Virus record (IMG/VR): IMGVR_UViG_3300032265_001977
Span: 1-50,144 of that record
Origin: a virus
Reading direction: 5' to 3' (one strand)
DNA: 50,144 nucleotides
The position numbers were made by a program, and so were the translations under genes. The notes beneath the pieces were generated by a model. It did not search any database, had not been told where the DNA came from, and saw only the letters and a program-made list of their open reading frames with translations. Below, one piece after another: positions 5,098 to 24,707 of this stretch. Positions within the stretch are counted from its first letter, which is position 1. Every line of letters begins with the position of its first letter.

Positions 5098-5712
5098 TTA
5101 GTTATTTATGCCTACATTAATTTTGTAACCAAGGGCAGGGCGTTTATCATAGGCAAATTCTGGATAAAACGGTCCATCTTTATTTATATAATGAAAAAAT
5201 CCTTGTACTTGATAGCTGTGCGGACCAGCTTTAAACTCGTCTCTCCAGTGTTCTACATCGCATCCACGATAAACAACAATATCACCTGGCTGTTGCCTAC
5301 ACGCTATATCTGGGTCAAGATACAAACTCCAGTTATAATTTTCATCTGTATCTGTGTAATTTATTCCAAAACACACAGTTGTACTTACTTCACAGCTAGG
5401 TCGATCCAAATGACGTTCTAAAATCATTCCAGGATGATATACTCTATAATAGCTATATGTAGGACAAAGATTTAACCCTGTAGATTTTTCCATGTGGGGT
5501 AATAAAAAATATAACAAAGTTTCCATCAAGGTATCGCTATATTTTGAATGAGCATTGGCTACTTGGGCCATAGCACCTAATTCTGGGTCAAATTCTGTTG
5601 ATTCTTGCAACAACGCATATTTTGTTACAATTTTACAAAGGTCCTTGGGGATTATGCCTTTGAGATCTAGGTATTGCTTTTGTTTAAATTGTTCGGGTAA
5701 TGTTATTTCCAT
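5098..5712 (-). CDS. Putative 2OG-Fe(II) oxygenase (prolyl-hydroxylase-like)
   Basis: 204 aa from ATG 5712; an upstream TTG at 5730 is in frame but less likely. The ATG overlaps the preceding gene's stop, indicating translational coupling. Metal motif LERHLDRPSCE supplies H101 and D103; PGDIVVYRGCDVEHWRDEF supplies distal H155. The following strand SYQVQGFFHYI has Gln where the 2OG-binding Arg or Lys is expected; I recall the HWR...QVFxHY pattern from bacterial relatives, so this may be a subfamily feature. The protein closes the three-oxygenase run that follows the divergent halogenase. Product type (protein or small-molecule hydroxylation) is unknown. Confidence 0.75.
   Translation of the reverse strand: MEITLPEQFKQKQYLDLKGIIPKDLCKIVTKYALLQESTEFDPELGAMAQVANAHSKYSDTLMETLLYFLLPHMEKSTGLNLCPTYSYYRVYHPGMILERHLDRPSCEVSTTVCFGINYTDTDENYNWSLYLDPDIACRQQPGDIVVYRGCDVEHWRDEFKAGPHSYQVQGFFHYINKDGPFYPEFAYDKRPALGYKINVGINN
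5103..5110 (-). promoter_or_regulatory. T4-type late promoter box
   Basis: CATAAATA on the minus strand matches the NATAAATA late consensus of T4-like phages. It overlaps the last codons of the upstream oxygenase and lies 26 bases before the tail-chaperone ATG, with the Shine-Dalgarno between. Confidence 0.55.
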
Positions 5713-6506
5713 GGTTGTCCTAAGCTCCAAGATACTAAACTGTATCGTATACCTTTTGTTACGGGTGTAACTTGATGGTAGATATGAGAAGGAAATACTA
5801 TTACCGAACCTTGTGGTCTAATTTCAGTACAAGTATGGTATCTCTCTTCTTGCCTATGCGGGCCTAAATCAAAACGAAGATTTCCACCTTTATATTCGGA
5901 CGGATCATTTAGACTTAAAGTCGTACTTATTTTACGTATTTTTCCTGCTTGATTAGGATTATCAGTATATTCCATCTTAGCTGGCATAGGGTTGCCGCCG
6001 GGATCTAGCTTATTAGTTCCGTCAGGATTTTTGACATATTCGGTATTTTCGTCGATTAATTTATAAGGAAACAATCCTGTATCGGCGTGCCACCCGTAAA
6101 ATTGATCTGGTCCGTATTTTGTAAATTGAAAATGTTCGGTGAAATCCCAGTCAAAGTTCCAACCAGCTTGTTTATTTGCTTCTCTAATAAACGGCCACAT
6201 TAATTCATACAGCCAACTATTGTCTAAAAATACAACCTTGGAATCCCTAATATAAGTTTCTTCGAAATTAATACCTTTTTTCTTTAATCCGTCTAATGTG
6301 TATTTAGAACCCGATATAGATGTCGGTGTGCCGCCAAGAGATTCGCCACCTTTTTGTTTCATGTCGCCGGTAATTGCGTCAGTAGAGGCTTTACCAAACT
6401 TTACTTCTTGGTCATGCATCTTAGTTAAACCGTATTCGATTATTTGATCACAAATTTGCGGCTTAATTGCTGATATAAAATACCAATAATTATAACCCAA
6501 TATCAT
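5703..6506 (-). CDS. PKHD-type 2OG-Fe(II) hydroxylase
   Basis: 267 aa with a complete facial triad: FYGWHADTG gives H140 and D142, PSHIYHQVTPV gives H244, and KGIRYSLVSW gives R254 for 2OG. The segment RKISTTLSLNDPSEYKGGNL is the typical PKHD/prolyl-4-hydroxylase strand-turn (LSLxDPxxYxGGxL). An insertion of about 40 residues (roughly 146-187, rich in Asn, Pro and Gly) lies between the first metal motif and this strand. It overlaps the upstream gene by four bases (ATGA) and the downstream one by ten, so the three oxygenases form one translational unit. Likely an active hydroxylase; substrate unknown. Confidence 0.85.
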   Translation of the reverse strand: MILGYNYWYFISAIKPQICDQIIEYGLTKMHDQEVKFGKASTDAITGDMKQKGGESLGGTPTSISGSKYTLDGLKKKGINFEETYIRDSKVVFLDNSWLYELMWPFIREANKQAGWNFDWDFTEHFQFTKYGPDQFYGWHADTGLFPYKLIDENTEYVKNPDGTNKLDPGGNPMPAKMEYTDNPNQAGKIRKISTTLSLNDPSEYKGGNLRFDLGPHRQEERYHTCTEIRPQGSVIVFPSHIYHQVTPVTKGIRYSLVSWSLGQPWK

Positions 6507-7132
6507 CTAAATAATGCCCCGTGAACGTGTCCAATGATAACGTGTTTACTGCCACTAGTTACAGATTTAATTCTATAAGCCATAAATGATGGAAATATAA
6601 TACAACTTCCTTGTGATTTCATTGCGGCCGGATCGGTTTCTGTATTTAAAAATTCAAGTTCGCCACCTTCATATGTGTTAGGGTCTGTTAAATTAATAAT
6701 GAAAGTAAGTTTTCTAGAAGGAGCAACTGGATTCAACTCCATATGCCAATCGTAGTGATCTTTAACATCATATTTAAAGACTTGTGGAAAATCTTGATCA
6801 ATTATTCCTAATAATTTAAAATCGTATATTTGATCGTTGGCTGCTTTTGTAACCACCCTAATAGGATCAAATGGAAATCCTTCAACTTCGCCCCTTAACT
6901 TTTGTCTCTTAGAAGAATGTAATTTTTTATCTCCGATCACTTTAGACGATAGCCATAATTCTTCAATACAGCTTTTTATAATCTTATCACACTCTTCCGG
7001 AGTAAAAACATCTGCTTTGTTTACTGATAAAATTTCTAAACTAGCAAGTTTAGCAAGTTTAATGTTTGATAAATCTGAGGATTCTGTAAAATTTTCAGTT
7101 GTATCCAGAGATAATTCGTTGTCATTTGCCAT
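6503..7132 (-). CDS. PKHD-like 2OG oxygenase homologue with degenerate metal site
   Basis: 209 aa from ATG 7132, placed five bases after AGGAG; a GTG at 7138 is in frame but would bury the Shine-Dalgarno. It is a paralogue of the next gene downstream: FIINLTDPNTYEGGELEF and GSCIIFPSFMAYRIKSVTSG align with its strands. The first metal motif is WHMEL (H130-x-E132). The distal iron His is replaced by Tyr (Y186 in PSFMAYR, against PSHIYHQV in the paralogue), and the 2OG Arg aligns with Lys (K196). Unless another His substitutes, iron binding is impaired. It may be a regulatory or partner subunit, or a decaying copy. The first ~85 residues are unrecognised. Confidence 0.75.
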   Translation of the reverse strand: MANDNELSLDTTENFTESSDLSNIKLAKLASLEILSVNKADVFTPEECDKIIKSCIEELWLSSKVIGDKKLHSSKRQKLRGEVEGFPFDPIRVVTKAANDQIYDFKLLGIIDQDFPQVFKYDVKDHYDWHMELNPVAPSRKLTFIINLTDPNTYEGGELEFLNTETDPAAMKSQGSCIIFPSFMAYRIKSVTSGSKHVIIGHVHGALFR

Positions 7133-7168
7133 AGGCACTCCTAAAATATATGTTTACTTATCCAAATA

Positions 7169-8377
7169 TTAATTGGATGAAAAATAATTGTAACCCATGC
7201 CTTTATCAAAGTGACTCCATACTACAAATGGAAAAGGATATATTGCCATAGGGCTAGCATAGTGTTCAGGTTTAACCTGTTTTAATATTTCTAAATTATA
7301 TTTCCATCGCTCACTAGTAGCTAACTTTTTACTACATTTTGCTACAGTAGTTTTCCAAAATTCTGAATCGTATGTGGATCCGCCATGATAGATATAACAT
7401 ATTGCTAGCTCATGATCTTCGGCAAAATCGTGTAACTTAATATTAGCCTGGTCTTCTGTAAGTTGTTGGGTGACGGCATAATCGAACCAGGTTCTTAACA
7501 CTTGATCGTAAAACCACCCAGCTAACGCTTCAATCGGTTCAAAAAATAATGCTTTATTTCCGTTTTTAACGATGCGATTATCGATAAATTTTTTAGCTTT
7601 ATAGTTTTTAAAAGAAAATTCGTTAGTAATAATTTTATCTTTGGGTATACCCCGTATTTCACTAAAATTTTCGATTGCTTCTTCCTTAGATGTAATTTTA
7701 TCGTTATATAAGTACCCCCAACCCTGACGTGTTTTTAACGGAATGCCAAACATCCAACCGTTGGGGTGTGCTCGATGGTGTGTATAATTCCAATCTCCAG
7801 GTGTAGGTACCATGTTTATTAACGCATGATTAACTGGAATAGTATCTACAATAGTATAGTCTTCATCATAGCTAGCCGGATATCCGCTACAATCGATAAT
7901 ATAGTCAAATTCATAATCAACATCGTTTACTTTACAAGTAACTTTATCTGGTAAATTTTGTATATCTGTAATTTTTCCTTCTAATGTTTTAAATTTGTCA
8001 GGCCATTTTTTCTTAAAACGTGGAAAGCATACCTGTTTCAATTTAAAATTATTAAAATGTATTCCATAGTTAGGTACCGGGAACACCGCCATGTGTTCAG
8101 TATCTCGCCAATTGGTATACTTTGTACCCCATTTTATAGTGACATCCAATTCATCGGCGTCTGTAAAAAAGTTTAAATCTGCTCCATAGAACAATACCTG
8201 TGGTGTAGATGAAGTGGCTGTTTCACCTATACCTAACATGGGAATATTAGGGTCATAAATTGAAACTACTTCCCATTCTTTTGGTGGCAACCAAGCAAGT
8301 AGATGGGCTAACGAAGTGATTCCATTAGTACCCGTTCCGATTACAGCAACTTTTTTCATATTATTTTCCGTGGTCAT
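7169..8377 (-). CDS. Divergent flavin-dependent (tryptophan-halogenase-family) protein
   Basis: 402 aa, shorter than the ~500-residue family norm and the most divergent of five homologues here. A Rossmann FAD motif (VIGTGTNG, residues 12-19), GIGET (49-53), and an ELDVTIKWGTKYTNW segment whose K82 aligns with the catalytic halogenase Lys (PrnA K79 region) are present. DYIIDCSG marks the second FAD-binding segment. WMFGIP (208-213) replaces the WxWxIP signature, and FFEPIEA carries E280 at the conserved Glu. The N-terminal glycine pattern lacks the usual GGGxAGW. A second ATG at 8359 (codon 7), behind GGAAA, may be the true start. Halogenation is plausible; another flavin oxidation cannot be excluded. 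It is transcribed divergently from the next halogenase. Confidence 0.8.
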   Translation of the reverse strand: MTTENNMKKVAVIGTGTNGITSLAHLLAWLPPKEWEVVSIYDPNIPMLGIGETATSSTPQVLFYGADLNFFTDADELDVTIKWGTKYTNWRDTEHMAVFPVPNYGIHFNNFKLKQVCFPRFKKKWPDKFKTLEGKITDIQNLPDKVTCKVNDVDYEFDYIIDCSGYPASYDEDYTIVDTIPVNHALINMVPTPGDWNYTHHRAHPNGWMFGIPLKTRQGWGYLYNDKITSKEEAIENFSEIRGIPKDKIITNEFSFKNYKAKKFIDNRIVKNGNKALFFEPIEALAGWFYDQVLRTWFDYAVTQQLTEDQANIKLHDFAEDHELAICYIYHGGSTYDSEFWKTTVAKCSKKLATSERWKYNLEILKQVKPEHYASPMAIYPFPFVVWSHFDKGMGYNYFSSN

Positions 8378-8385
8378 TATTTTTA

Positions 8386-8399
8386 GTTAAATATTTAAC
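8386..8399. promoter_or_regulatory. Palindromic AT box in a divergent halogenase promoter region
   Basis: The 48 bases between two divergent halogenase genes contain the perfect 14-base palindrome GTTAAATATTTAAC, which presents TTAAATA on both strands and is one base off the last seven positions of the late box TATAAATA. It could act as a bidirectional promoter element or an operator. The rightward gene has GAGAG as Shine-Dalgarno. Confidence 0.35.
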
Positions 8400-8425
8400 A
8401 TTTGCAACAGACTGAGAGATAATAA

Positions 8426-9973
8426 ATGAAAATAGACAAAATCGTTATAGTAGGTGGAGGAAGCGCAGGTTGGATGACCGCTGCAACACTAGTACGCTTA
8501 TTCCCACATAAAAAAATTACATTAATCGAAAGTCCTAACGTGCCGACTGTGGGCGTAGGAGAAAGTACTATCGGTGGCATACAAGATTGGCTTACTTTAC
8601 TAGGTATAAAAGACACTGATTTTATGAAAGATTGCGACTCTACATACAAATTAAGTATTAGATTTGAAAATTTTTATAAAAAAGGAGATGGAGGATTTCA
8701 TTATCCTTTCGGAACAGCCTATTTGAAGAATACTAGAGTAGGGCTAAATGACTGGCATGTTAAAAAAGCATTGGTTCCTGAAACACCGAATAGCGAATTT
8801 GCCGAGGAATATTTTCCTCTGATGTCATTAGTTAATGGTAACAAGTTTTGTAAAGAAACTATTAAACAACTGCCCGATACTAGTATGTTTAATGTTGCGT
8901 TTCATTTTGATGCAGCGAAATTTGCGATCTGGCTTAGAAATTTTTGTGCAGAAGACAACTTTAATTTTATACAGTCGGATGTTGTAGAGATTAATGCTGA
9001 TGATGACGGCGTAACTGATTTATTATTAGATAATGGAGATATCATTACTGGAGATTTTTATATCGATTGTACTGGTTTTAAAAGTCTATTACTAGATAAA
9101 ACTATCAAAGAACCGTTTAACAGTTTTTCTGACATGCTACCCAATAACAGAGCGTGGGCAACTCGAGTACAATATATTGATAAACCTAATCAGATAGAGC
9201 CATTTACTAATTGTACAGCATTGGGTAATGGGTGGGTTTGGAATATTCCCTTATGGAGTCGAATCGGAACTGGTTATGTATATAGTGACAAGTATGTTAG
9301 TCCCGAAGATGCTAAACAAGAGTTTATCGATCATTTAAATAGCAAAGGATTTGACACTTCTAACTTAGAATTTAGAGATATACAAATGCGAGTAGGAATG
9401 CACGAACGTATCTGGGTCAAGAATGTTTGTGCTATAGGCCTTAGTGCGGGGTTCATTGAACCTTTAGAATCTAATGGTTTGTATACTGTACATAGATTTT
9501 TAACACATCTAGCAAGAGCATTACTTAGAGAGCGTGTTGGCCGATTTGAAATAGATTCATTTAATCTGGCTTGTAAAAAGAATTTCAGAGAATTTTCAGA
9601 ATTTGTTGCTATGCACTATGCATTAAGTGTAAGAGACGACACTGAATACTGGCGAGATAATTTAAAACGAAATTACTCAGACTCGTTACCTACATTTGAA
9701 GTAAGTTTAGTTAATGAATTTAAGAAAAACGCATTAATGCGGTATATGGATTACAATAATTCAGATACGTCTGGCGGAATAAACTGTATTGGAGCAGGTA
9801 TGGGGTACAATCCGTGTGATATTGTAACTCTTAGAGCATACAATCCTGGAGCCAGAGATTATAAAGAATTTTTAATTCCAAATATGAATAAAGAAGTATG
9901 GAAAGAGATGGCTAAAAATGCTCCCACTATGTATGAATTTTTAGCTAAAAACATTTATAAGGAAATCGAATGA
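8426..9973 (+). CDS. Flavin-dependent tryptophan-halogenase-family protein
   Basis: 515 aa, full length, with all family hallmarks: FAD-binding GGGSAGW (10-16), GVGES (43-47), catalytic-Lys segment STYKLSIRFENF (K75), DFYIDCTGF, the WVWNIP signature (270-275, WxWxIP) and SAGFIEPLESNG with conserved Glu E345. These enzymes use FADH2 and O2 to make hypohalous acid, which travels to the Lys to halogenate an activated aromatic ring. The SAGFIEPLES variant is shared with the homologue at 19.1 kb, so these two form one subgroup. The last four bases overlap the next halogenase (ATGA). No flavin reductase is adjacent. Confidence 0.92.
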   Translation: MKIDKIVIVGGGSAGWMTAATLVRLFPHKKITLIESPNVPTVGVGESTIGGIQDWLTLLGIKDTDFMKDCDSTYKLSIRFENFYKKGDGGFHYPFGTAYLKNTRVGLNDWHVKKALVPETPNSEFAEEYFPLMSLVNGNKFCKETIKQLPDTSMFNVAFHFDAAKFAIWLRNFCAEDNFNFIQSDVVEINADDDGVTDLLLDNGDIITGDFYIDCTGFKSLLLDKTIKEPFNSFSDMLPNNRAWATRVQYIDKPNQIEPFTNCTALGNGWVWNIPLWSRIGTGYVYSDKYVSPEDAKQEFIDHLNSKGFDTSNLEFRDIQMRVGMHERIWVKNVCAIGLSAGFIEPLESNGLYTVHRFLTHLARALLRERVGRFEIDSFNLACKKNFREFSEFVAMHYALSVRDDTEYWRDNLKRNYSDSLPTFEVSLVNEFKKNALMRYMDYNNSDTSGGINCIGAGMGYNPCDIVTLRAYNPGARDYKEFLIPNMNKEVWKEMAKNAPTMYEFLAKNIYKEIE

Positions 9974-11529
9974 ATATAGTTGTTGTTGGTGGCGGAACGG
10001 CTGGCTGGTTAGCGGCGTTATTTCTTAGTAAATATCGACCTGGCGAACATAATGTAACAGTTATCGAGACCTCTACTATCCCAGTTGTAGGTGTAGGCGA
10101 AAGTACAACCGGTGTTTTTACTGATATTCTAACCAATCATCTTTGGGACTTTGGATGCGATCACGATGAATTTATAGTTGAGACAGGCGCCACGTTAAAA
10201 TATGCCATTAAACATTCAGGATGGACAAAAGACATAACGCAATCGTATATTGCTCCATTAGACGGCACAGCTACAACATCTAGTACTCCAGATGCCATGC
10301 TTGCATGGGGACTGAATAATTTATCAAAAGATGAATTTATTAAACTTTCTAGATTAGGCTATTGGATTAATAATGGTCTATCTAACTTTGATATAGATAA
10401 TCAAAAATTTGAAGATATCTCACATGCCATGCACGTAGATGCGCATTTAGTTGGTAAGTATTTTAAAAAGATTTGCCTTAAAAGCGATTTTGTTCAACAC
10501 ATAGATAGTAAAATTACAAATGTAAATTTCAACGATAATGGTTTCATTAGAAGTGTAGGACTAGTAGATGGATCCACGGTAGAGGGAGATTTCTTTATCG
10601 ATTGTACAGGATTTTCCAGACTATTAATGAGCAAAATGGAAGGTAGTAGCTGGGTTAGTTTTAAAAAGCATCTGCCTATTAACACCGGAATGCCATTTTT
10701 GTTAAAGTATAAAGAAGGAGAAATGCCTAAGCCTTATACTCACGCATGGGCACAAAAAGCCGGCTGGATGTGGCAAATTCCATTGATGGATCGTATAGGA
10801 TGCGGTTATGTTTTTTGCGATAGCTTTAGTACTCCAGAACAAGCACAAGCAGATATCGAAGAATCGCTAGGACAAGAAATTGACCCTATTAAGATTATTA
10901 AATTTGATTCTGGCAGACAAGAAAATGCGTGGGTTAAAAATTGTGTCACCATAGGATTAGCCGCTTCTTTCTTAGAACCGTTAGAAGCAACAAGTATACA
11001 TGGTACTATTGTAACACTTAAGAATTTTGTGTTTGAATATTTAAAACCTACATTAGAACAAACAATAAACACAGGTAGTATGAATGTATACAATGCACGA
11101 TGTGCTAAATTACATGATGAATTTAAAGATTTTGTAAACGCCCATTATATGGGTGGAAGGAATGATACAGAATTTTGGAAATATATTAGCACAGGTGTTA
11201 CAAAAACTGATTACGTGGCAGATAGACTCGAAATGCTTAAATCGAGATTACCTACTATTAGAGATTTTCCTGATTACTGGGGTGCCGCCGGCTGGCCGTT
11301 GTGGGCATGGGTGTTGGATGGCATTGGGCATATAGATCCAAAGATAGCACTCAATGAAATTAATATGCAAATTCCTGGACAATATAATTCGTTGAATAAT
11401 ATATCTGCAGAATTTTATTACAATTCTCAAGATCAGTTTAGGCAAAGTAGTAGTCGTCTTGCTTCATATGACGAATTTATTGAATATTTTAGAAAAATTA
11501 GGGAACAGAATGGCATACACCGTAACTAA
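9970..11529 (+). CDS. Flavin-dependent tryptophan-halogenase-family protein
   Basis: 519 aa. GGGTAGW (7-13), GVGES (41-45), ATLKYAIKHSGW with catalytic-type K77, DFFIDCTGF, WMWQIP (266-271) and AASFLEPLEATSIHG with E336. It shares the SF-x-EPLEATSI variant with the homologue at 13.8 kb, forming a second subgroup distinct from the SAGFIEPLES pair. Shine-Dalgarno AAGGAAA sits inside the end of the preceding halogenase, and the 3' end overlaps an oxygenase gene by 20 bases, so halogenase-halogenase-oxygenase-oxygenase is one tightly packed operon. The C-terminal region (DYWGAAGWPLWAW) is Trp-rich, as often in this family. Substrate unknown. Confidence 0.9.
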   Translation: MNIVVVGGGTAGWLAALFLSKYRPGEHNVTVIETSTIPVVGVGESTTGVFTDILTNHLWDFGCDHDEFIVETGATLKYAIKHSGWTKDITQSYIAPLDGTATTSSTPDAMLAWGLNNLSKDEFIKLSRLGYWINNGLSNFDIDNQKFEDISHAMHVDAHLVGKYFKKICLKSDFVQHIDSKITNVNFNDNGFIRSVGLVDGSTVEGDFFIDCTGFSRLLMSKMEGSSWVSFKKHLPINTGMPFLLKYKEGEMPKPYTHAWAQKAGWMWQIPLMDRIGCGYVFCDSFSTPEQAQADIEESLGQEIDPIKIIKFDSGRQENAWVKNCVTIGLAASFLEPLEATSIHGTIVTLKNFVFEYLKPTLEQTINTGSMNVYNARCAKLHDEFKDFVNAHYMGGRNDTEFWKYISTGVTKTDYVADRLEMLKSRLPTIRDFPDYWGAAGWPLWAWVLDGIGHIDPKIALNEINMQIPGQYNSLNNISAEFYYNSQDQFRQSSSRLASYDEFIEYFRKIREQNGIHRN

Positions 11530-12160
11530 TTTATCCGACGAAGTGCTCATAATTGAAAATGTTGTTCCATTAAGTTTTCAAGATGCTATAATTTCTAGAT
11601 TGCAAGGAGAAAATTATTTTCCATGGTACACTCTACACAGGATAGGCCACCCTCAAGCGTTCCCGCTTGGGACAACTCCTAATTATCCAGATAAAAACAT
11701 TACCGACGACGTAGGTCTGTATCACATGGTGTTTGATCATGAACCTAAGTCGTCGCATTTTGATTTTTTTAGAATGATATTAGAATTCTTTTCTGAAAAA
11801 ACAGATATCAAAATTGGAAAATTATTAAGAATAAGATTAAGATACACCCATCCTAGTAAATCCCACGATGAAACAAAGTATGCGGCACCCCATGTAGATT
11901 TTAGTATGGCCAGTCCGTATTCTACATTAGTGTACTATGTTGACAATAGTGATGGTGATACTATTTTATTTGATAAATTATACTCTCAAACAGATGGTCC
12001 GTATAATCCGTTGTTTGAAGATCAGCTACCAGAACTATTAAGGGTAACTCCACGAAAAGGTGTAGGAGTATTTTTTAATGGGCATAGGTATCATGCTGGC
12101 AATTTTCCTATAAATTATAGTACGCGGATAGTAATTAATTTTGATTTTGAGACATTATGA
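11510..12160 (+). CDS. Putative 2OG-Fe(II) oxygenase (HxD type)
   Basis: 216 aa from ATG 11510; a longer in-frame start at 11459 would overlap the halogenase by 71 bases. Core motifs: YAAPHVDFSM (H128, D130), STLVYYVDNSDGDTILFD, VTPRKGVGVFFNGHRYHAG (distal H195) and STRIVINFDF (R206). All four 2OG-oxygenase positions are intact. It is a close paralogue of the leftward gene at 17.1-17.7 kb, sharing LPHVDY/APHVDF, the SDGDT turn, FNGxxYH and the NPIN/FPIN-R end. Its operon position directly behind two halogenases suggests a shared substrate or pathway, which is inference. Confidence 0.8.
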   Translation: MAYTVTNLSDEVLIIENVVPLSFQDAIISRLQGENYFPWYTLHRIGHPQAFPLGTTPNYPDKNITDDVGLYHMVFDHEPKSSHFDFFRMILEFFSEKTDIKIGKLLRIRLRYTHPSKSHDETKYAAPHVDFSMASPYSTLVYYVDNSDGDTILFDKLYSQTDGPYNPLFEDQLPELLRVTPRKGVGVFFNGHRYHAGNFPINYSTRIVINFDFETL

Positions 12161-13209
12161 AATATAAAAATATTAATGTAGATGACAATAAATTTATTAA
12201 AATTTATGACGATGTCTTTACCTATGCCGAAATGAGTCAGTTGTTTGATGTAGCTAAAAAATCAAAATATGGATTGGAAAGAACTGCGTCTAGTACTGTT
12301 CCAGTTAATGAACAGTTTAAATCTCTTAAAAGTGAATATACAGTATACGATTTGTTATGGTCAAATTTCTTCCAAGGGTCTTCGACTGATTTTTTAAAGG
12401 AAGAAATAAAAGAAAAAAATCTTCGACTTCACAGAGTGTATATTAACTTGTCTACGGCACAAGACATTTACCATTTTCATACAGATAGCGGTGTTGACCA
12501 GGATATAACTTTATTATATTATTTTAATTGCAAGTGGGAATCACATTGGGAAGGTGAAACTCATTTTGGAGATCCATCCGCCCGTGAAATTATCTATAGC
12601 ACGTCGTTTCTGCCAGGTAGGTTAATATTATTCACGGCTACAATTCCGCATAAAAGTTCACAGCCTTCGTTCCTTGCTCCAGAGTTTAGATATGTATTAA
12701 CTATGAAATTTTCTTCTAAATATCATTCTGATTATAAACGAGATTTTCCAATAGGTGATTTATTTCTCACAGACGATATCGAAATATCAGATTTTGAAAA
12801 AGAAGCTATTGCGTTTTTATCAAAACATACACAAGGCATGAAACATAGTGGTACTACATTCTTTTTACATTGTTTTAACACTTATAAAATATTAAAGAAT
12901 CAAGGAAAACCTTTATATGTGTGTCTTGCTGGTTTATTTCATTCAGCATACGGTACTGAATTCAGAACTGGCTTTTTTAAAGACAGAGAAGTATTACAAA
13001 ATGTAATTGGGGAAGCTGCCGAAGAATTAGTTTTTAGATTTTGTAATTTAGCTGATCGAGATAAAGAACTTTTAGATCCTAATTGTATGGATATAGAATT
13101 AATTACGATTGCTTACGCAAATGTACTAGAAGAAAAATTCAGAGATCAGTCAACTGAGGAAGAAATTATCGATTATAAAAACAAATTAGAAGAAATTAAA
13201 GGACAGTGA
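12157..13209 (+). CDS. 2OG-Fe(II) oxygenase fused to HD-like DUF6817-type domain
   Basis: 350 aa with two parts. Residues ~1-190 form a 2OG-Fe(II) oxygenase: IYHFHTDSGVDQ (H108, D110), LLYYFNCKWESHWEGETHFGD, LPGRLILFTATIPHKS (H165) and APEFRYVLTMKF (R178). Residues ~205-350 resemble the DUF6817 HD-like helical domain: H230 and H238 in an MKHSGTTFFLHCFNTYKIL helix, CLAGLFHSAYGTEF (258-269), IGEAAEELVFRFC and ADRDKELL. In HD-like folds such His/Asp sets bind metals for oxidative or hydrolytic chemistry, so this may be two consecutive reactions in one chain. It overlaps the upstream oxygenase by four bases and the convergent oxygenase at its 3' end by 24 bases. Confidence 0.75.
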   Translation: MKYKNINVDDNKFIKIYDDVFTYAEMSQLFDVAKKSKYGLERTASSTVPVNEQFKSLKSEYTVYDLLWSNFFQGSSTDFLKEEIKEKNLRLHRVYINLSTAQDIYHFHTDSGVDQDITLLYYFNCKWESHWEGETHFGDPSAREIIYSTSFLPGRLILFTATIPHKSSQPSFLAPEFRYVLTMKFSSKYHSDYKRDFPIGDLFLTDDIEISDFEKEAIAFLSKHTQGMKHSGTTFFLHCFNTYKILKNQGKPLYVCLAGLFHSAYGTEFRTGFFKDREVLQNVIGEAAEELVFRFCNLADRDKELLDPNCMDIELITIAYANVLEEKFRDQSTEEEIIDYKNKLEEIKGQ

Positions 13210-13803: not shown

Positions 13804-13808
13804 GACAA

Positions 13809-13816
13809 TATTTATA
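13809..13816 (-). promoter_or_regulatory. T4-type late promoter box immediately at a start codon
   Basis: A perfect TATAAATA on the minus strand ends six bases before the oxygenase ATG at 13803. With the T4 spacing of about six bases from box to transcription start, the mRNA would be nearly leaderless; no Shine-Dalgarno is visible. Confidence 0.5.
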
Positions 13817-13832
13817 AGCACACATAATTACA

Positions 13833-15299
13833 ATGAATAAACTAGAAAATATATCAATAATCGGTGGAGGCACGGCAGGATTTGTGTCGGCGCTTATATT
13901 AAAAGTTAGATATCCCCAATTAAATGTTAAGATAGTTCGATCTAAAAAGATCGGAATTATCGGTGTGGGTGAAGGTAGTACAGAACACTGGGATAGTTTT
14001 CTGAAATATATAGGTGTTAGTTGGCAAGATTGTATACGTGCGTGTGACGCAACATTTAAATGCGGTATTTTATTCAAAGGATGGGGCAACGAAGATTATA
14101 TGCACAGTACGGGCCCTGATTTAGAAAAGCTAAACGGTGAATCGCTATTCATATATAACAAAATTATTGGAAATAATCTTCCTAAAAAAATTATGAATCC
14201 AGCAGGCAACTGGGAAAGTAGAATTTTTGTTTCAGATTTAGAAAAACCCGAAGCGCCATTTAATCAATATCATTTTAATACAAACAAACTGAATGATTTC
14301 CTCACTAGTATTGCTCACGTACACGGAATTGAAATTGTCGATGATGAAATTGTCGATGTGATCTTTAACGAGGATGGCGAAATCGTCAATCTTATCGGAG
14401 AAACAGGTAGATATCCTTCAGATTTTTATATAGATTGTACAGGTATGCGTCGTATACTAATATCTAAGATGGGTGCTAAGTGGCAAAGCTATAGTAAATG
14501 GCTTAAAATGAAATCTGCCATTGTTTTTCCATTGCCTCAAGAAGAAAAATTAAACATGTATACAACAGCAACCGCCATGGATTACGGTTGGATGTTTAAT
14601 ATTCCTGTATGGGGTCGAAGCGGGAACGGTTATATATTCGATAGCGATTATATTACAGCAGAGCAGGCTCAGCAAGAAGTTGAAAAATTGCTAGGGAAAG
14701 ATATAGATGTTGGTAAACACATTAATTTTGATCCTGGAGCATTAGATCGTGTTTGGATTAAAAATTGTTGTGCTGTAGGACTTAGTGCTAGTTTTGTAGA
14801 ACCACTAGAAGCAACTAGTATTGGAAGTAGTATAAGACAAGTATTTTTGTTAATGCACCGATTACCAAATTACGATGAAAACACTATTGAAACTTATAAT
14901 AATGCCGCTACTGAAATATTAACTAATGTGAGAGATTTTGTTTTAATACACTATTTAACTAATAAAACTAATACACAATTTTGGAAGGATATTTCTAAAA
15001 TAGAAATGCCCGACAGTCTACAAACGTTATTACAGCGATGGAAGAAAAATTTACCAATTGCCGATGATTTTACAGGTCAAACTATGTATACCATGTTTAA
15101 AGCGGGAAACTTCGCTCAAGTATTACATGGTTTAGATTTTTTTGATACAGAAGCAATTAGAAGAGAATACAATATGATGAATCCGATGACTAAAAAATGG
15201 GGTGATGAAATCCTATCATTTATTCATCCGGCAGTTGATAATCGCCCTTATGTAGAACACAGAGAAGTTATAGAATCGATCCGTAATGCTAATTATTGA
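13833..15299 (+). CDS. Flavin-dependent tryptophan-halogenase-family protein
   Basis: 488 aa. FAD motif GGGTAGF (11-17), GVGEGS (44-49), ATFKCGILFKGW with catalytic-type K76, DFYIDCTGM, WMFNIP (253-258, Phe replacing the second Trp of WxWxIP) and SASFVEPLEATSIG with E323. It belongs with the 9.97 kb homologue by its SF-x-EPLEATSI variant. It is a single-gene rightward unit between a divergent oxygenase on its left and a convergent oxygenase operon on its right, whose stop it overlaps by 7 bases. The Trp-to-Phe change could alter whether halogenation or another flavin oxidation is performed; this is unresolved. Confidence 0.88.
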   Translation: MNKLENISIIGGGTAGFVSALILKVRYPQLNVKIVRSKKIGIIGVGEGSTEHWDSFLKYIGVSWQDCIRACDATFKCGILFKGWGNEDYMHSTGPDLEKLNGESLFIYNKIIGNNLPKKIMNPAGNWESRIFVSDLEKPEAPFNQYHFNTNKLNDFLTSIAHVHGIEIVDDEIVDVIFNEDGEIVNLIGETGRYPSDFYIDCTGMRRILISKMGAKWQSYSKWLKMKSAIVFPLPQEEKLNMYTTATAMDYGWMFNIPVWGRSGNGYIFDSDYITAEQAQQEVEKLLGKDIDVGKHINFDPGALDRVWIKNCCAVGLSASFVEPLEATSIGSSIRQVFLLMHRLPNYDENTIETYNNAATEILTNVRDFVLIHYLTNKTNTQFWKDISKIEMPDSLQTLLQRWKKNLPIADDFTGQTMYTMFKAGNFAQVLHGLDFFDTEAIRREYNMMNPMTKKWGDEILSFIHPAVDNRPYVEHREVIESIRNANY

Positions 15300-15922
15300 T
15301 CAAAAAAGAAAACTTGATTTATTCTTTTTAAATTAAAAAAAGTATCATCTTCGATACTCATACCGTGTAAAAACTTTGCTCCATCAAAAAGTACAAGCCG
15401 ATTAAATTTTGCTTCTAATGTTTTAATTATTTTATATCGGTAGCGTGGCCGCCAAGGAGCAAAATGTTCAGGGGTTGAATACAAATCTTCTTCTAAAGAA
15501 TCATAAAAATTTGTACCCAAACTATCAAATGTATTTAAGTATACTAGCGCATTATAACCAAGATCCTTGTGCGGACCCCAATAATTATTTTTATAATCGT
15601 TAAATTCTCTATTAAAAAACTGTATACAATTTGTAAGTATACGCCCTGGATGCGATATTGGTTGACCGCACAAATTAGATAATAATTGTTCGGCTGGAGT
15701 TATTGCTAAATTTAAAAAATTGTGTCGTCGATCAGCAAAATGTATATCATTGAATGACGGGTTATCCTCGGCCTTCCATAGTTTTGCCGGAACTTGTGTA
15801 AACAAATACGATGAAATTTCATCAGGATATTTATAAAAATCATCTATAATATATATTTTTGAATCTTCAAATATTTCTGTTTTAATATCGAGCTGTTCGT
15901 TAAGTTCGAAAATATTAATCAT
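15293..15922 (-). CDS. DUF6445-like putative 2OG-Fe(II) oxygenase
   Basis: 209 aa from ATG 15922, one base after the upstream stop; an in-frame TTG at 15931 is less likely. The IYIIDDFYKYPDEIS opening followed by HPGRILTNCIQFF resembles the DUF6445 family. Metal residues: NYWGPHKDLGYNALVYLN (H118, D120), FNRLVLFDGAKFLHGM (H186) and LKRINQVFFF (R200). From memory, DUF6445 proteins occur near tryptophan-halogenase genes in bacterial loci, which fits this setting. Last gene of a four-oxygenase leftward operon, convergent with and overlapping the halogenase end by 7 bases. No terminator is visible. Confidence 0.75.
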   Translation of the reverse strand: MINIFELNEQLDIKTEIFEDSKIYIIDDFYKYPDEISSYLFTQVPAKLWKAEDNPSFNDIHFADRRHNFLNLAITPAEQLLSNLCGQPISHPGRILTNCIQFFNREFNDYKNNYWGPHKDLGYNALVYLNTFDSLGTNFYDSLEEDLYSTPEHFAPWRPRYRYKIIKTLEAKFNRLVLFDGAKFLHGMSIEDDTFFNLKRINQVFFFDQ

Positions 15923-15923
15923 A

Positions 15924-16511
15924 CTAGCCAAAATTCATTGATATAGATATCCTGGGATCAGTATTTGTACCAGGCTCAACCATGTGTCTAAGATAAGACC
16001 TAAAAATTATTAAAGCACCCGGGGATGCTGTATAATGAATTCTATGATAGCTTAGTGCGCTATCGCGTTTAATACTTTTTAATGGCATCATATCGGGTTC
16101 TTTAGGATCCTCGAATATAATACGACCCGATCCTGGTGGGGCAGAAATATAATAGACCAGGCTAAAAATACTACCATTATGTGTATGAAATTCTTGAAAA
16201 TTATTAGTGTCGGCTATATTTAACCACGCATGTTGGCACTCGTATGTGCTATCGCACCCGTGTTTTTTAGCAAAATCATTTACACACTCGGTAATCTTTT
16301 TAACAAGATCAGCGAAAACTGGATCTGTTTTAACCTGATAATCTCGAGATTCGTGTGTAGTATATGTACCGCCTTGCCAATTATTGTGTGCGCTGGCTAT
16401 TTTTTCTTTTACATTTAACGAATGATTAGTCCATAGTTGATTTTGCTCGACTGAAAATAATTCATTTTCGGTATAGATACTGACAGGAAACCACATTTCA
16501 ATGTTTGGCAT
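15924..16511 (-). CDS. Putative 2OG-Fe(II) oxygenase (HxH type)
   Basis: 195 aa of the 2OG-FeII_Oxy_5 pattern: FPVSIYTENE opening, HAWLNIADTNNFQEFHTHNG (H109-x-H111), FSLVYYISAPPGSGRIIFED, SPGALIIFRSYLRHMVEPG (H176) and DPRISISMNFG (R187). His stands where Asp is usual. It overlaps the preceding gene by 14 bases. The two HxH paralogues in this operon are about 200 residues each and clearly distinct in sequence, arguing for old divergence rather than recent duplication. Confidence 0.8.
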   Translation of the reverse strand: MPNIEMWFPVSIYTENELFSVEQNQLWTNHSLNVKEKIASAHNNWQGGTYTTHESRDYQVKTDPVFADLVKKITECVNDFAKKHGCDSTYECQHAWLNIADTNNFQEFHTHNGSIFSLVYYISAPPGSGRIIFEDPKEPDMMPLKSIKRDSALSYHRIHYTASPGALIIFRSYLRHMVEPGTNTDPRISISMNFG

Positions 16512-17127
16512 AATCTACATGTATATTAAAAGATATTGCATATCTATCGGTATCGGATAAATTAACACCAACACCGTGCTGAAGGTATGATTCAAATATA
16601 ATCATTTTACCTTTTTGAGGAGTAAATTTAACTGTTTCAAAATTATACATATTGCTATCACGTTTTATTCGACGATCAATATATTCTAACATTTGAGTAC
16701 GCACTGCAACAGGATTAAAAAATGTTAAATCTCCACAATTATCGTCTACTTGTAAATAAATTACTCCACTTAGTGTTGCTCCAAAATGTTCGTGTCTATT
16801 AAATAAAGACTTTGGAGGGTTTAATTGCATCCATGTGGTAATTTCAACATAGCAATCTGGATCAAGTCCTAACAACTTTAAAAATTTTCTAGCCTCTTCG
16901 TTAATTACTAGCAACAACGTTTTATCATTCATCTTGCCAAGTAAATTATATTCTGGATCGTTATAATATGTTGTAACGAGATTACCTTCGTCTGGGCGGC
17001 CACTTAGATATTTTTTGTTCTCTTCTTTAGATATAAATTCTTTTAAGGTAGTCAGTGTATTATCTATGATGTTTTCGTCAATCATTACGGTTGCTATTGG
17101 TACTGGAAATAAATTATCTATTATCAT
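16498..17127 (-). CDS. Putative 2OG-Fe(II) oxygenase (HxH type)
   Basis: 209 aa, same family as its downstream neighbour: LFPVPIATVMID opening, TTWMQLNPPKSLFNRHEHFG (H112-x-H114), ATLSGVIYLQVDDNCGDLTF, TPQKGKMIIFESYLQHGVGVN (H184) and DRYAISFNI (R195). ATG 17127 overlaps the stop of the first operon gene (ATGA), so translation is coupled. The LSGVIY strand and distal-His segment are textbook for the family; substrate not predictable. Confidence 0.82.
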   Translation of the reverse strand: MIIDNLFPVPIATVMIDENIIDNTLTTLKEFISKEENKKYLSGRPDEGNLVTTYYNDPEYNLLGKMNDKTLLLVINEEARKFLKLLGLDPDCYVEITTWMQLNPPKSLFNRHEHFGATLSGVIYLQVDDNCGDLTFFNPVAVRTQMLEYIDRRIKRDSNMYNFETVKFTPQKGKMIIFESYLQHGVGVNLSDTDRYAISFNIHVDYAKH

Positions 17128-17705
17128 ACTGGGTCTAAATTAATATTTAAAATAACACGTCGAGTACTGTTAATAGGATTCGTAGCAGTATGATATTGCA
17201 ACCCATTAAATAACACTAGTCTATTAGCTACAGGAGTTATACGATGTACTGTAGGAAATATTTCCGGTTCTGGAAACCCGTTAAATACAGGTTCAAACAT
17301 TCTTGTGTCGCCATCAGAATCATTAAAATAATAAATTATAGTGTCGTGCGGATAAAAGTAATCAACGTGAGGCAGATTATAATTTTCTTCCTTCCATCCA
17401 ATTTTAGGATTTTTCATACTTGCCCGAGCTCTAATAAGATTATCTCGAGTATATCCGTAGTCTTTTTCTAATTTTTCAAAAAATACAGAGCAGTGGCGAA
17501 AGAAAAAACTAATATTTGAATCTTCCCGATCAAATATCATATGATTGAATCCGTCAGTTTCTCGTGCAAACTGATCTTTGAAGTTATAATCTCCCGGCGG
17601 CAAAGATACGTATGGTGTATAATACCACGGAAAGTCTCCAGAAAGTACTTTTTCTTGAAACTTTTTAAAATCATTTTCTGGTAAGAAGTTATCTTTGATT
17701 ATCAT
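17124..17705 (-). CDS. Putative 2OG-Fe(II) oxygenase (HxD type)
   Basis: 193 aa, first gene of the four-oxygenase leftward operon. NYNLPHVDYFYP (H113, D115), DTIIYYFNDSDGDTRMFEP, ITPVANRLVLFNGLQYHTAT (H172) and STRRVILNINLDP (R182 or R183). Complete triad and 2OG Arg. It is a paralogue of the oxygenase at 11.5-12.2 kb, which follows a halogenase pair directly; finding the same type heading a separate operon suggests duplication within the cluster. A late promoter box lies seven bases upstream of the ATG. Confidence 0.83.
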   Translation of the reverse strand: MIIKDNFLPENDFKKFQEKVLSGDFPWYYTPYVSLPPGDYNFKDQFARETDGFNHMIFDREDSNISFFFRHCSVFFEKLEKDYGYTRDNLIRARASMKNPKIGWKEENYNLPHVDYFYPHDTIIYYFNDSDGDTRMFEPVFNGFPEPEIFPTVHRITPVANRLVLFNGLQYHTATNPINSTRRVILNINLDPV

Positions 17706-17712
17706 CGTCGAA

Positions 17713-17720: not shown

Positions 17721-17760
17721 GAATATTTTGTACCCCTTGAAAAAAACATAAGTAGTTAAT

Positions 17761-18348
17761 ATGAACTATGCAACAATACCATTATTTTCTACCCCTGTTT
17801 ATTCTACAAAAATAAATGTGTCAGATTGCCCAAATTTTGAAAGTATTGAATGGGTCACAGCACATGGGCACGGAATGAGTCAGGATAGCCGATTGTTAGA
17901 TCAGCCAGTGTGGGAATCGTTGCGTAGTCAAATACTAGATCATATAGAACAGTTTTTTTATAAAGAATTAAGAGCAAATACCAATTGTAAAATTCATATT
18001 ACAACTAGTGTAGCTAATAAAAATGAACCAACTCAAATTCATCCTCGGCATTCTCATGTAAATAGCATCTTAAGTGGATGTGTTTATTTTGATTTTCATC
18101 CTTCAAAAATTAAATTTATACGAAGGTCTTATAATCAAATTAAATATGACATAACTGATTATAATTTATATAATTCAGAAGAGTGGGTGATTGCTCCTGA
18201 ACCCGGATTATTATTAATATGGCCTAGTGAACTAGAGCATGAAGTAGAAATTTCCAAGATTGGTGATCCTGTACGATATAGTATTGCTTTTAACACCTGG
18301 TTGAGTGGTGATGTTAATACTGCTGAACTTGCCTTATTGAGATTATGA
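17761..18348 (+). CDS. Putative 2OG-Fe(II) oxygenase (HxH type)
   Basis: 195 aa. Opening IPLFSTPVYSTKINV matches the FPxPI-type start of 2OG-FeII_Oxy_5 proteins; core TQIHPRHSHVNSILSGCVYF (H97-x-H99), PEPGLLLIWPSELEHEVEI (H160), VRYSIAFNTW (R172). Another HxH member, this time rightward and divergent from the leftward four-oxygenase operon. It starts a rightward unit with an unknown protein (one-base gap), a halogenase and a second unknown protein. No clear Shine-Dalgarno is visible before the ATG. Confidence 0.8.
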   Translation: MNYATIPLFSTPVYSTKINVSDCPNFESIEWVTAHGHGMSQDSRLLDQPVWESLRSQILDHIEQFFYKELRANTNCKIHITTSVANKNEPTQIHPRHSHVNSILSGCVYFDFHPSKIKFIRRSYNQIKYDITDYNLYNSEEWVIAPEPGLLLIWPSELEHEVEISKIGDPVRYSIAFNTWLSGDVNTAELALLRL

Positions 18349-18349
18349 C

Positions 18350-19078
18350 ATGTTTGATATATTTTTTAAAAAACGTAAAATTGTAGTAGATTGCTTTACA
18401 TCACACACCGGATCTTATGAACTATTTCCTATTAAAGAAGCTTCTAGATTCATGCCCGACTGGTGGAAATTGCTACCAAATTCTTATATGGTTACCAATG
18501 AACACAAGTTATCTACCCCGAGAGCTACTATGAAACGTTGTGAAGGATTTATAGGGCTCTATCAACATGGATTCATAATACCTCTCTGGACTGATTTAAT
18601 TATGGAAACAACTAGTACTGGTTTTAACTATCAGTTTGCCGATGGCAGCAGTTCTATTGGATACCATGATGATAATCAAAAAGGTGCTGAATTTAAAAAA
18701 TACAATCATGTTAAAATACATACACCTTGGCGTATACAAGAAAAAACAGGTGTTAAGTTTTTATTTTTACAACCTTCGTGGAACGCTCCTGAAGAAATGC
18801 ATATAGTCAACACGCCCCCAGGCATTATTGATTTTAAATATCAACATTCGAGTCATGTTAATTCATTTTTGTTACCAGACAAAAGATACGACTGGCCGGC
18901 TGGTAAACCCATGGCACATTTAGTTCCACTGTCGGATGCCGAAATAGAGATAAAATTACATTTTGTAGGCGGAGACATTAATGTAGCAAAGGTAATGGAG
19001 CCTGGCATGCCAGCGTATCTATCTTCTTATCAAAAGATAAAAAAAATAAAAGAAGGCAAGTGCCCTTTTAAAGGTTAA
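18350..19078 (+). CDS. Unknown phage protein, paralogue of the 20.6 kb gene
   Basis: 242 aa, family not recognised. It is homologous to the protein encoded at 20580-21320, which lies on the other side of the halogenase. Matching pieces are a Cys-led segment ending in DLIMETTST (DLIMEIHST in the partner), a central β-rich stretch (FLFLQPSWN, PPGIIDFKYQHSSHVNSFLL) followed by AGKPMAHLVPLSD, and a C-terminal KEGKCPF tail (KSDKCPY in the partner). MPDWWKLLP near residue 35 is a Trp-rich helix. No signal peptide or membrane segment is apparent. Flanking a halogenase in one operon suggests a substrate-binding or partner role, but this is inference only. Confidence 0.7.
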   Translation: MFDIFFKKRKIVVDCFTSHTGSYELFPIKEASRFMPDWWKLLPNSYMVTNEHKLSTPRATMKRCEGFIGLYQHGFIIPLWTDLIMETTSTGFNYQFADGSSSIGYHDDNQKGAEFKKYNHVKIHTPWRIQEKTGVKFLFLQPSWNAPEEMHIVNTPPGIIDFKYQHSSHVNSFLLPDKRYDWPAGKPMAHLVPLSDAEIEIKLHFVGGDINVAKVMEPGMPAYLSSYQKIKKIKEGKCPFKG

Positions 19079-19080
19079 TT

Positions 19081-20583
19081 ATGAAAGTAGAAAAAATAGT
19101 CATTGTCGGAGGAGGTACTAGCGGGTGGATGACCGCCGCATACCTTAGTAAAAATAATCCTGAGGTTACTATTACTATAATAGACAAAGAAGTTGGAACT
19201 CCGATTGGGGTAGGAGAAGCCACACTAATTAATTTTAAAGATTTTTTAGACGAATGCGGATTTCATATCGATGATTGGTTTTCAAAAATTGACACTGGCT
19301 ACAAAGCTGGTATCTTATTTGCTAATTGGACTAAACCTGGAAATGAATTATGGCATCCTTTTTATAAAGGTAATAAGGTGCTACCTAATGAAGAATTTCC
19401 GTTAGATGTATATGTACACGATCTATGGACACTAAATCAAGATTTAGATTTTAAAACATATACTATGGGTAATTATGATGCATCTGTATATGAAAATAAA
19501 ATAGATAGTCATTTATTGAATATAGGGTACTACGGATATCATGTTGATTGCGGTAAATTAGTTCAGTTTATTCAAGAAAAATTATTATCTGATCCGTTAA
19601 GAAAGATTCAAATTATCAGATCTGATGTTGTTAATATATCTCGCAAAGTCGATGACGATATTGAATATCTAGAACTTAAAGATGGACAAAATATTTCAGC
19701 TGATTTGTATATAGATTGTACCGGATTTAAAAGTTTATTAAGTCCAGGAAGAGATCGTGTTAATTTAATGGGTCGCTTATTTTGTAATACCGCAGTAGTT
19801 TCTCCAGTGCCGTACAAAGATAGAAATACTGAATTTAAGCCATACGCAATATCAGAGGCGGTAGATCACGGATGGGTATGGAAAATTGGTGTAGCAAGTC
19901 GAATCGGCAGTGGTATGGTATTTAATCGAGATATAACAGATATCGAAGAAGCAAAAGATTATTTTGTTAATTACTGGGATAATCGCATTAGTAAAGAAAA
20001 AGTGCGTGTTATAGACTGGACTCCTTTTTATAATAATAATCAATGGAAGGGTAATGTTGTGCAAATTGGTTTGAGTGCCGGATTTATTGAGCCTTTAGAA
20101 AGTACAGGTATTGCGTTAATTACTGCTGGAGCAACGCAAGTACACAATGTAATCAGAGAGCAATTTTATGATCAAAATAGCATAGATTACTTTAATCAAA
20201 CTATGAAAATGTACTTTGAAGATTGCATAGATTTTGTGGCGGCACACTACGACAGAAATGAACGCACTACTCCTTTTTGGAATTATGTAAAAGAAAAATT
20301 TGTACCTAGTGATCGGATGAAACATCATATGGCATTGGTAGAAAAATCAACTAATGTACTGTCTTATAGAGGAAGATTTAACACAATATTCAACGGAGTA
20401 AACTGGAGTTCAATACTAATACAAATGGGATTTCCAGTTGCTCCTAGAGATTTACCTATTAATCCAGAATATGCCAGAGAAATTCTAGTAAAAAATTATA
20501 TTCGAAATGACAAACATCGTAGCATTTCAGGATTACATCACAGTAGTGAAATAGACAGAATAGCAGAACTTAATAGATTATGA
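19081..20583 (+). CDS. Flavin-dependent tryptophan-halogenase-family protein
   Basis: 500 aa. GGGTSGW (10-16), GVGEA (43-47), TGYKAGILFANW with catalytic-type K75, DLYIDCTGF, and SAGFIEPLESTGI with E337. The WxWxIP signature is WVWKIG (265-270), so the Pro is replaced by Gly. It groups with the 8.4 kb homologue by SAGFIEPLES. It starts two bases after the upstream unknown gene and overlaps the downstream one by four bases (ATGA), so the three are co-expressed. Likely a halogenase, though family members without reported halogenation exist and the changed motif urges caution. Confidence 0.9.
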   Translation: MKVEKIVIVGGGTSGWMTAAYLSKNNPEVTITIIDKEVGTPIGVGEATLINFKDFLDECGFHIDDWFSKIDTGYKAGILFANWTKPGNELWHPFYKGNKVLPNEEFPLDVYVHDLWTLNQDLDFKTYTMGNYDASVYENKIDSHLLNIGYYGYHVDCGKLVQFIQEKLLSDPLRKIQIIRSDVVNISRKVDDDIEYLELKDGQNISADLYIDCTGFKSLLSPGRDRVNLMGRLFCNTAVVSPVPYKDRNTEFKPYAISEAVDHGWVWKIGVASRIGSGMVFNRDITDIEEAKDYFVNYWDNRISKEKVRVIDWTPFYNNNQWKGNVVQIGLSAGFIEPLESTGIALITAGATQVHNVIREQFYDQNSIDYFNQTMKMYFEDCIDFVAAHYDRNERTTPFWNYVKEKFVPSDRMKHHMALVEKSTNVLSYRGRFNTIFNGVNWSSILIQMGFPVAPRDLPINPEYAREILVKNYIRNDKHRSISGLHHSSEIDRIAELNRL

Positions 20584-21320
20584 AAACAGTTAAATGGTCG
20601 TTTGGAACAGAATCTATAGAGCCTGATACTACACATTCTGCTTGTATGATTCCATTGATTGATAAAGATTATTATCCGTTTGTAAGTCTAACGAAAGAAG
20701 TTAAGGCATTAAGGCGCGGTGAGACATTTTTAAAATGCCCTGCTAATACCGATTTTTTAAAAAATACATTTGGATTAGTTGCACCTCACGATTTAATCAT
20801 GGAAATACATTCAACAACTGACGATCAATTTAGTGTGCGTTGTGAAAATCTTACACAAGATCAATTTAACAAATTAATTGATACTAGGTTTTTAGAGGGT
20901 ACTGAAAAAGGTACAAGTCCCCATCCGTTAGTAGGATTAGATTGGTTATGTACATTTACTAGTGAAGAATCTATGTTAATTCAATTGCTTCCAGCATTTT
21001 TACATCATAACGATTTCACCCTACGAACTGTTATGATACCTGGACAATACGATATCGGCAAATGGGTACGTCCAGTTGAATTAGTTTTTGAATTTAAACG
21101 TCCTAACGAACGTGTTACTATTAAGAAGGGCGATGTGATTGCCTACTTTAAATTTTATACAGACGATTCAGTAAAATTAGTTGAGCAGTCGGTGCCATGG
21201 GATGATACTATGACTTGTATGGATATCAGAAATAAAGATAGATGGCGGCCGTTAAAAGCTAGATACGAGGCATTTGCTAAAGTTAAATCTGACAAATGCC
21301 CGTATAGTCCTAAAGATTAA
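20580..21320 (+). CDS. Unknown phage protein, paralogue of the 18.4 kb gene
   Basis: 246 aa, family not recognised. Shared layout with the 18350-19078 protein: FLKCPANTDFLKNTFGL then APHDLIMEIHSTTDDQF; SMLIQLLPAFLHHNDFTLRT; an IPGQYDIGKWVRPVELVFEF strand pair; KKGDVIAYFKFYTDD; and a C-terminal KVKSDKCPYSP tail with a single Cys. The KKGDVIAYFKF segment resembles a β-barrel or jelly-roll edge but no active site is obvious. Ends convergently with the glycine-rich fibre gene, overlapping it by four bases with no terminator seen. Confidence 0.7.
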   Translation: MKTVKWSFGTESIEPDTTHSACMIPLIDKDYYPFVSLTKEVKALRRGETFLKCPANTDFLKNTFGLVAPHDLIMEIHSTTDDQFSVRCENLTQDQFNKLIDTRFLEGTEKGTSPHPLVGLDWLCTFTSEESMLIQLLPAFLHHNDFTLRTVMIPGQYDIGKWVRPVELVFEFKRPNERVTIKKGDVIAYFKFYTDDSVKLVEQSVPWDDTMTCMDIRNKDRWRPLKARYEAFAKVKSDKCPYSPKD

Positions 21321-22441: not shown

Positions 22442-22454
22442 TTATTATCTCTTA

Positions 22455-23564: not shown

Positions 23565-23577
23565 TTATTATCTCTTA

Positions 23578-24705: not shown

Positions 24706-24707
24706 TT

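Follow-up and report, generated by a model that had tools for sequence, protein, structure and literature searches.

The 50,144-bp viral contig IMGVR_UViG_3300032265_001977 from IMG/VR (the window) derives from a large uncultured phage that carries a dense, selected block of halogenase-like and oxygenase-like genes beside its tail-fibre genes. Open reading frame (ORF) calling combined with Pfam and PHROGs places five homologues of the PF04820 flavin-dependent halogenases (FDHs) and eleven 2-oxoglutarate (2OG) oxygenase-like genes within positions 5098–21320, and a twelfth 2OG-like gene at 1401–2093. Pfam, PHROG and motif evidence thereby confirms the count given in an earlier, sequence-only reading of this DNA. 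The locus is of the type found around VirX1 in cyanophage Syn10, with at least two FDHs, a beta-clip protein (UA) and at least three 2OG genes packed beside tail genes. The sequence-only reading did not recognise an array of this size; the five-halogenase version is indeed enlarged, against three FDHs at most in the isolates searched, but combined arrays as such recur (Syn10, S-RIM44, P-RSM6). The window is apparently an enlarged variant of a recurrent locus type that has gone unrecognised as a locus. We tentatively favour, as the best explanation of this array, the late tailoring of virion tail or adhesin proteins.

A recurrent locus under purifying selection

In a manual tally among fetched loci, 28 other IMG/VR contigs, some near-identical to each other, carry at least two FDHs and at least three 2OG genes, and L234 adds one, giving about 29. 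The sequence-only reading had proposed a search for such loci and had allowed that the arrangement might be confined to this contig or be a chimeric assembly; with so many other viral contigs carrying such arrays, an artefact of either kind is ruled out. Gene order is conserved in the jumbo-phage clade to which the window belongs, with 4–13 oriented adjacencies common to the window and non-sister arrays, against a shuffled mean of 0.3–0.5. The array recurrently lies between the gp13–15/GroESL/tail-chaperone region and genes for tail fibres or glycine-rich adhesins, and adjoins tail genes in the jumbo clade. In clade member G001 (152.8 kb), every 2OG match but one falls in the array locus.

The sister contig IMGVR_UViG_3300032241_001390 is ~80% identical to the window, with 71–86% protein identity in the array. 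Saturation at synonymous sites led us to use the raw ratio of nonsynonymous to synonymous differences (pN/pS) instead of the standard dN/dS. This ratio is 0.11–0.30 for every array gene common to the two contigs, and these genes are under purifying selection. Phage origin, close packing, intact enzyme motifs and conservation are all supported.

The window gp15 is closest to those of the jumbo phages Phosso, PA5oct and Atu_ph07, and the gp23 capsid protein of G001 is 67–71% identical to those of Phosso, Vibrio 2.275.O, PA5oct and GAP32. Judged by these two proteins, the phage belongs with the jumbo T4-related phages; cyanophages were considered as the nearest lineage and ruled out by the matches of gp15 and the G001 capsid to Phosso, PA5oct and GAP32. 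The array was not found near gp15 in Phosso or Atu_ph07, nor near GroEL in Vibrio 2.275.O, and jumbo relatives were without an FDH (Phosso, Atu_ph07) or without PF13759 (Vibrio 2.275.O included).

Gene content of the array

The array is bounded on one side by gp15, a NUDIX gene (2080–2532), GroES/EL and a tail assembly chaperone, and on the other by three Gly_rich_2 proteins, an S74-chaperone protein and two giant tail-fibre ORFs, flanks that agree with the placement first given, between a groESL/tail-chaperone region and the virion module. Starts and stops overlap, as had also been described, but the supposed operon structure holds only to that extent: the genes switch strand repeatedly, forming at least six blocks, and the array is thus not a single operon. 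Predicted features are as follows.

1401–2093, +: 2OG-Fe(II) oxygenase, PF13759 (Pfam E 5e-9), HxH type, outside the main array
5098–5730, −: 2OG-oxygenase-like, phrog_2954 ('ferrochelatase'); H107xD109...H161, R163
5703–6506, −: 2OG oxygenase, PKHD/P4H-like; PF13640 E 3e-12; PiuC-like PDB match; H140xD142...H244, R254
6503–7138, −: 2OG-fold protein with distal iron His replaced by Tyr; PF13640 E 1e-8
7169–8377, −: short divergent FDH homologue, 402 aa; PF04820 E 8e-28; phrog_2928; catalytic Lys and Glu columns kept
8426–9973, +: FDH, VirX1 clade; PF04820 E 4e-109; top PDB match VirX1 6qgm, E 8.5e-99
9970–11529, +: FDH, array-specific clade by tree; PF04820 E 3e-94
11459–12160, +: 2OG-oxygenase-like; H145xD147...H212, R223; phrog_274 (misnamed endonuclease V); real start likely close to 11510
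12157–13209, +: 2OG oxygenase fused to DUF6817; PF13640 E 1.6e-5; PF20680 E 1e-18; triad kept
13186–13821, −: 2OG oxygenase, PF13759 E 5e-18; HxH...H, R
13833–15299, +: FDH with orthologues in all related arrays, sister to the P-SSM2 FDH by tree; PF04820 E 3e-94
15293–15931, −: DUF6445-family 2OG-like protein; PF20043 at cut-off; phrog_1644; H121xD123...H189, R203
15924–16511, −: 2OG oxygenase, PF13759 E 3.5e-19; HxH...H
16498–17127, −: 2OG oxygenase, PF13759 E 2e-19, related to PDB 3bvc/2rg4; HxH...H, R
17124–17705, −: 2OG oxygenase, phrog_274, PF13640; H113xD115...H172, R183
17761–18348, +: 2OG oxygenase, PF13759 E 2.7e-14; HxH...H, R
18350–19078, +: UA, likely beta-clip (dUTPase-fold) protein, distant DUF6065 relative, halogenase partner
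19081–20583, +: FDH, clade of the S-SSM7 FDH by tree; PF04820 E 5e-91; WxWxIP ends in Gly
20580–21320, +: UB, likely second beta-clip (dUTPase-fold) protein; AF2 pLDDT 90; Foldseek; phrog_17480
21317–25820, −: three Gly_rich_2 proteins (28–34% Gly) and an S74-chaperone protein; candidate substrates (tail adhesins)
26198–46192, −: two giant structural/tail-fibre ORFs, 3621 and 3026 aa; candidate substrates

Beyond the giant ORFs, two small virion-region genes at 46226–46953 are 97–99% identical to the sister contig, while their neighbours are 71–87% identical, a jump that points to recent recombination.

Predicted halogenases and oxygenases

Catalytic motifs are intact in all five predicted halogenases, each of which clears the curated PF04820 cut-off (98–366 bits against 21; E 8e-28 to 4e-109). 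In their alignment, G10, G12 and G15 of the GxGxxG FAD motif, together with K75 and E348, are invariant in five of five; we take the last two columns to be equivalent to Lys79 and Glu346 of PrnA, the presumed catalytic Lys and Glu. The WxWxIP motif is exact in two of the proteins (WVWNIP, WMWQIP) and deviates in the other three (WMFNIP, WMFGIP, WVWKIG). A FastTree tree resolves the array FDHs into five orthologous groups, of which those of the 19081, 13833 and 8426 genes contain or adjoin cyanophage enzymes, and sets the bacterial FDHs almost entirely apart; only the ortholog groups are reliable, because deep branches are weak and some rows long-branched. No flavin reductase of family PF01613 occurs in the 11 records searched, so the source of FADH2 would be the host or another reductase family. 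Two related contigs (L009 and L092) have an extra ORF of ~197 aa, absent from the window, between the orthologue of the 7169 halogenase and that of the 8426 or 9970 halogenase.

Pfam 2OG models match eight of the eleven oxygenase-like genes of the main array (5703, 6503, 12157, 13186, 15924, 16498, 17124 and 17761), with the matches of 12157 and 17124 slightly below the gathering cut-off. The other three (5098, 11459 and 15293) are called 2OG-like from PHROG, DUF6445 and a conserved HxD...H. Ten of the 11 show full conservation of the presumed iron ligands: six genes (5098, 5703, 11459, 12157, 15293 and 17124) keep HxD...H and a distal Arg, and four PF13759 members keep HxH...H, an arrangement that matches the PF13759-like solved structures 3bvc and 2rg4. 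The exception is 6503–7138: where the distal His is expected, the window has Tyr and most relatives have Tyr, Trp or Phe; this protein is therefore likely a pseudo-enzyme, or may have an altered metal site.

The outlying gene at 1401–2093, between gp15 and the NUDIX gene, carries HxH and stands without an orthologue set for conservation comparison; it has no match in the sister contig, and other relatives carry different 2OG genes there. In 12157–13209, the DUF6817 part resembles an HD domain by sequence and possibly forms a second metal site. Three PHROG names are probable misannotations: phrog_2954 ('ferrochelatase'), phrog_274 ('DNA endonuclease V') and phrog_1644 ('minor coat protein') all cover 2OG-like proteins with a conserved HxD...H.

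Probable beta-clip proteins

The sequence-only reading overlooked two proteins of the array, UA (18350–19078) and UB (20580–21320). Neither has a Pfam match, and their profiles match one another. AlphaFold models (pLDDT 78 for UA and 90 for UB) retrieve dUTPase beta-clip folds in Foldseek, and the best matches are all dUTPases with probability 1.00, but at E 2.8e-4 to 3e-3 and with query template modelling (TM) scores of about 0.3–0.4. Given these modest values, a beta-clip, dUTPase-like fold is likely, short of proved. The dUTPase sequence family itself has no Pfam match among window proteins, and one UA relative matches at E 0.022. A UA-type protein also adjoins VirX1 in Syn10.

Proposed function and alternatives

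Late virion-protein tailoring is judged most likely because of the enzyme types, the number of paralogues, the gene neighbours and a bacterial parallel described below. Intact motifs and purifying selection also speak for it. Proteins or peptides are substrates of PKHD/P4H and JmjC-type oxygenases and of some halogenases. In further support, 66 of 80 halogenase-centred viral loci have at least one 2OG gene and none of 80 capsid-centred controls does, figures obtained with hidden Markov models (HMMs) partly trained on FDH loci and with the capsid neighbourhood as the only control; scans around GroEL and Gly_rich_2 genes found few loci and yielded no control set. The array genes would be expressed late, together with the virion genes, and each paralogue would recognise its own protein site: the 2OG oxygenases would hydroxylate side chains, and the halogenases, supplied with host FADH2, would halogenate or otherwise oxidise aromatic residues of the Trp/Tyr type. 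Tail fibres or adhesins would be the targets, modified before or during chaperone-assisted assembly, and the beta-clip proteins may serve as recognition or scaffold subunits. The benefit could be stability or a changed receptor-binding chemistry. Collagen-type GXY repeats were considered as a prolyl-hydroxylase substrate and rejected, as the neighbouring proteins have no repeats longer than 6 triplets.

Several points weigh against late tailoring of virion proteins. Substrate and activity of the array enzymes are predictions. FDHs lie away from tail fibres in P-SSM2 and HTVC008M (beside terminase), as does the third FDH of S-RIM44 (172 kb), and many 2OG genes of cyanophages and pelagiphages lie dispersed across the genome. 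The partial training of the HMMs on FDH loci and the restriction of the control to capsid neighbourhoods weaken the comparison of loci. Adjacency to late genes could also reflect an insertion hot spot. In its neutral form, with unrelated selfish or moron genes accumulating beside tail fibres, each with its own role, the hot spot would account for the partly shuffled order among relatives, for genes on both strands and for other genes found there, such as the sugar genes of S-SSM7. It is nevertheless very unlikely, as divergent contigs retain the same set of gene families together, often in a common order, and the genes are under selection.

The array might instead tailor a small molecule, a metabolite or peptide of host or phage origin, as auxiliary metabolism or to yield an antibiotic-like or protective product. 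Free Trp and natural products are the best-known context for PF04820 enzymes, many small aromatics serve as substrates of VirX1 (PMC8407142), and antibiotic protection has been published as a speculation (PMC2984593). No nonribosomal peptide synthetase, polyketide synthase, precursor of a ribosomally synthesised and post-translationally modified peptide or other scaffold enzyme is seen among the annotated array genes, however, the parallel paralogues exceed plausible pathway steps, and gene content differs among relatives, all of which makes this reading unlikely. The 'coordinated multi-step pathway' that the sequence-only reading drew from the overlapping genes is likewise not implied by an array on both strands, with variable content and no flavin reductase in the records searched; a large set of parallel paralogues would be explained no less well by a multiplicity of sites or substrates than by consecutive steps.

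Modification of host proteins or surface structures, for instance receptors (as superinfection exclusion) or translation factors, is quite unlikely. Bacterial FDH, Cupin_8 and DUF6445 loci do adjoin TonB receptors, and ribosomal proteins and factors are often hydroxylated by 2OG enzymes, but the array recurs in the midst of late virion genes and not with the early genes of host takeover. AlkB-like repair or base modification is highly improbable: the beta-clip folds match dUTPases, a NUDIX gene lies nearby at 2080–2532 and a DNA-repair role has been proposed in the literature for Syn9 2OG genes, yet no array protein has a TET/JBP or AlkB Pfam match, no window protein has a dUTPase domain match and no replication genes adjoin the array. 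Hardly any weight falls on the idea that the many oxygenases, through mass action, modulate 2-oxoglutarate and with it the nitrogen or energy state; although put forward for cyanophages (PMC3037559), it leaves five conserved halogenase clades and per-gene purifying selection on distinct paralogues unexplained.

Late tailoring of virion proteins extends to a broader proposal that we regard as doubtful. Marine jumbo phages and cyanophages would share an oxidative and halogenating system dedicated to the post-translational modification of tail adhesins, with one enzyme per site; VirX1-type enzymes would be virion-protein halogenases, and bacteria would apply a related set of genes to TonB receptors.

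Comparison with known systems

These results bear on what VirX1 and other viral halogenases act on in nature. The place of VirX1 in a conserved block beside tail genes makes a testable prediction of modified virion proteins in Syn10 or S-RIM44, both growable on Synechococcus. The results also correct the names of phrog_2954, phrog_274 and phrog_1644, whose members are probably 2OG-like, and expose a parallel with unstudied bacterial TonB-receptor/halogenase loci. Literature searches, whose coverage did not extend to the VirX1 primary paper, found no published description of such a phage locus; what is new here is that the genes are recognised as one clustered locus, with beta-clip partners and with a version that holds five halogenases.

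The reviews consulted treat VirX1 as a lone enzyme, as did the sequence-only reading. In Syn10 (HQ634191; L240:6488-16667), the VirX1 gene shares its block with a second halogenase, a UA beta-clip protein and about nine oxygenase, JmjC or DUF6445 genes, so it is not single and the combined array is a recurrent kind. As in the window, PF04820 genes and a UA-type protein are accompanied by PF13759, PF13640, JmjC_2 and DUF6445 genes, here downstream of structural genes, and the window halogenase at 8426–9973 falls in the VirX1 clade. Syn10 differs in having two FDHs against five, all block genes on one strand and no UB found, and in belonging to the Kyanoviridae, whereas the window is from a jumbo phage.

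Other marine phages carry related arrangements. S-RIM44 and Sf-CH11 have FDH/2OG blocks between a giant structural gene and gp13–15, and P-RSM6 has a block similar to that of Syn10 after its structural genes. A contig binned in a Dehalococcoidia metagenome-assembled genome (L152:3831-9029), which looks like phage DNA, has a single halogenase gene and six 2OG genes, flanked by a Gly_rich_2 protein on one side and by a putative tail protein on the other. A large phage 2OG repertoire was noted already in 2010 (PMC3037559). Isolated Kyanoviridae show 4–14 PF13759 matches per genome, often scattered. The marine members P-SSM2, HTVC008M, P-RSM6 and S-SSM7 have 11–14 PF13759 genes each, some of them clustered near gp13–15 in HTVC008M; their 2OG genes are mostly scattered and accompany 1–3 halogenases, whereas the jumbo clade concentrates most in one locus.

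The bacterial loci (Colwellia, Caulobacter, Teredinibacter and others) often contain tandem FDHs (L209:257-5932, L224:3394-18857, L173 and L215, with a maximum of five in L215), and those examined closely contain SapC, Cupin_8 (JmjC-type), DUF6445 and a TonB-dependent receptor, a combination for which no literature was found. Like the phage array, they set tandem FDHs, a JmjC-type oxygenase and DUF6445, the family of the array gene at 15293–15931, beside a large surface protein. Unlike it, they have FDHs from the separate bacterial part of the tree, a TonB receptor in place of the tail fibre and no PF13759 array by the HMMs used. The shared grouping of FDH, oxygenase and DUF6445 beside a large surface protein in bacteria and phages is a suggestive parallel rather than proof.

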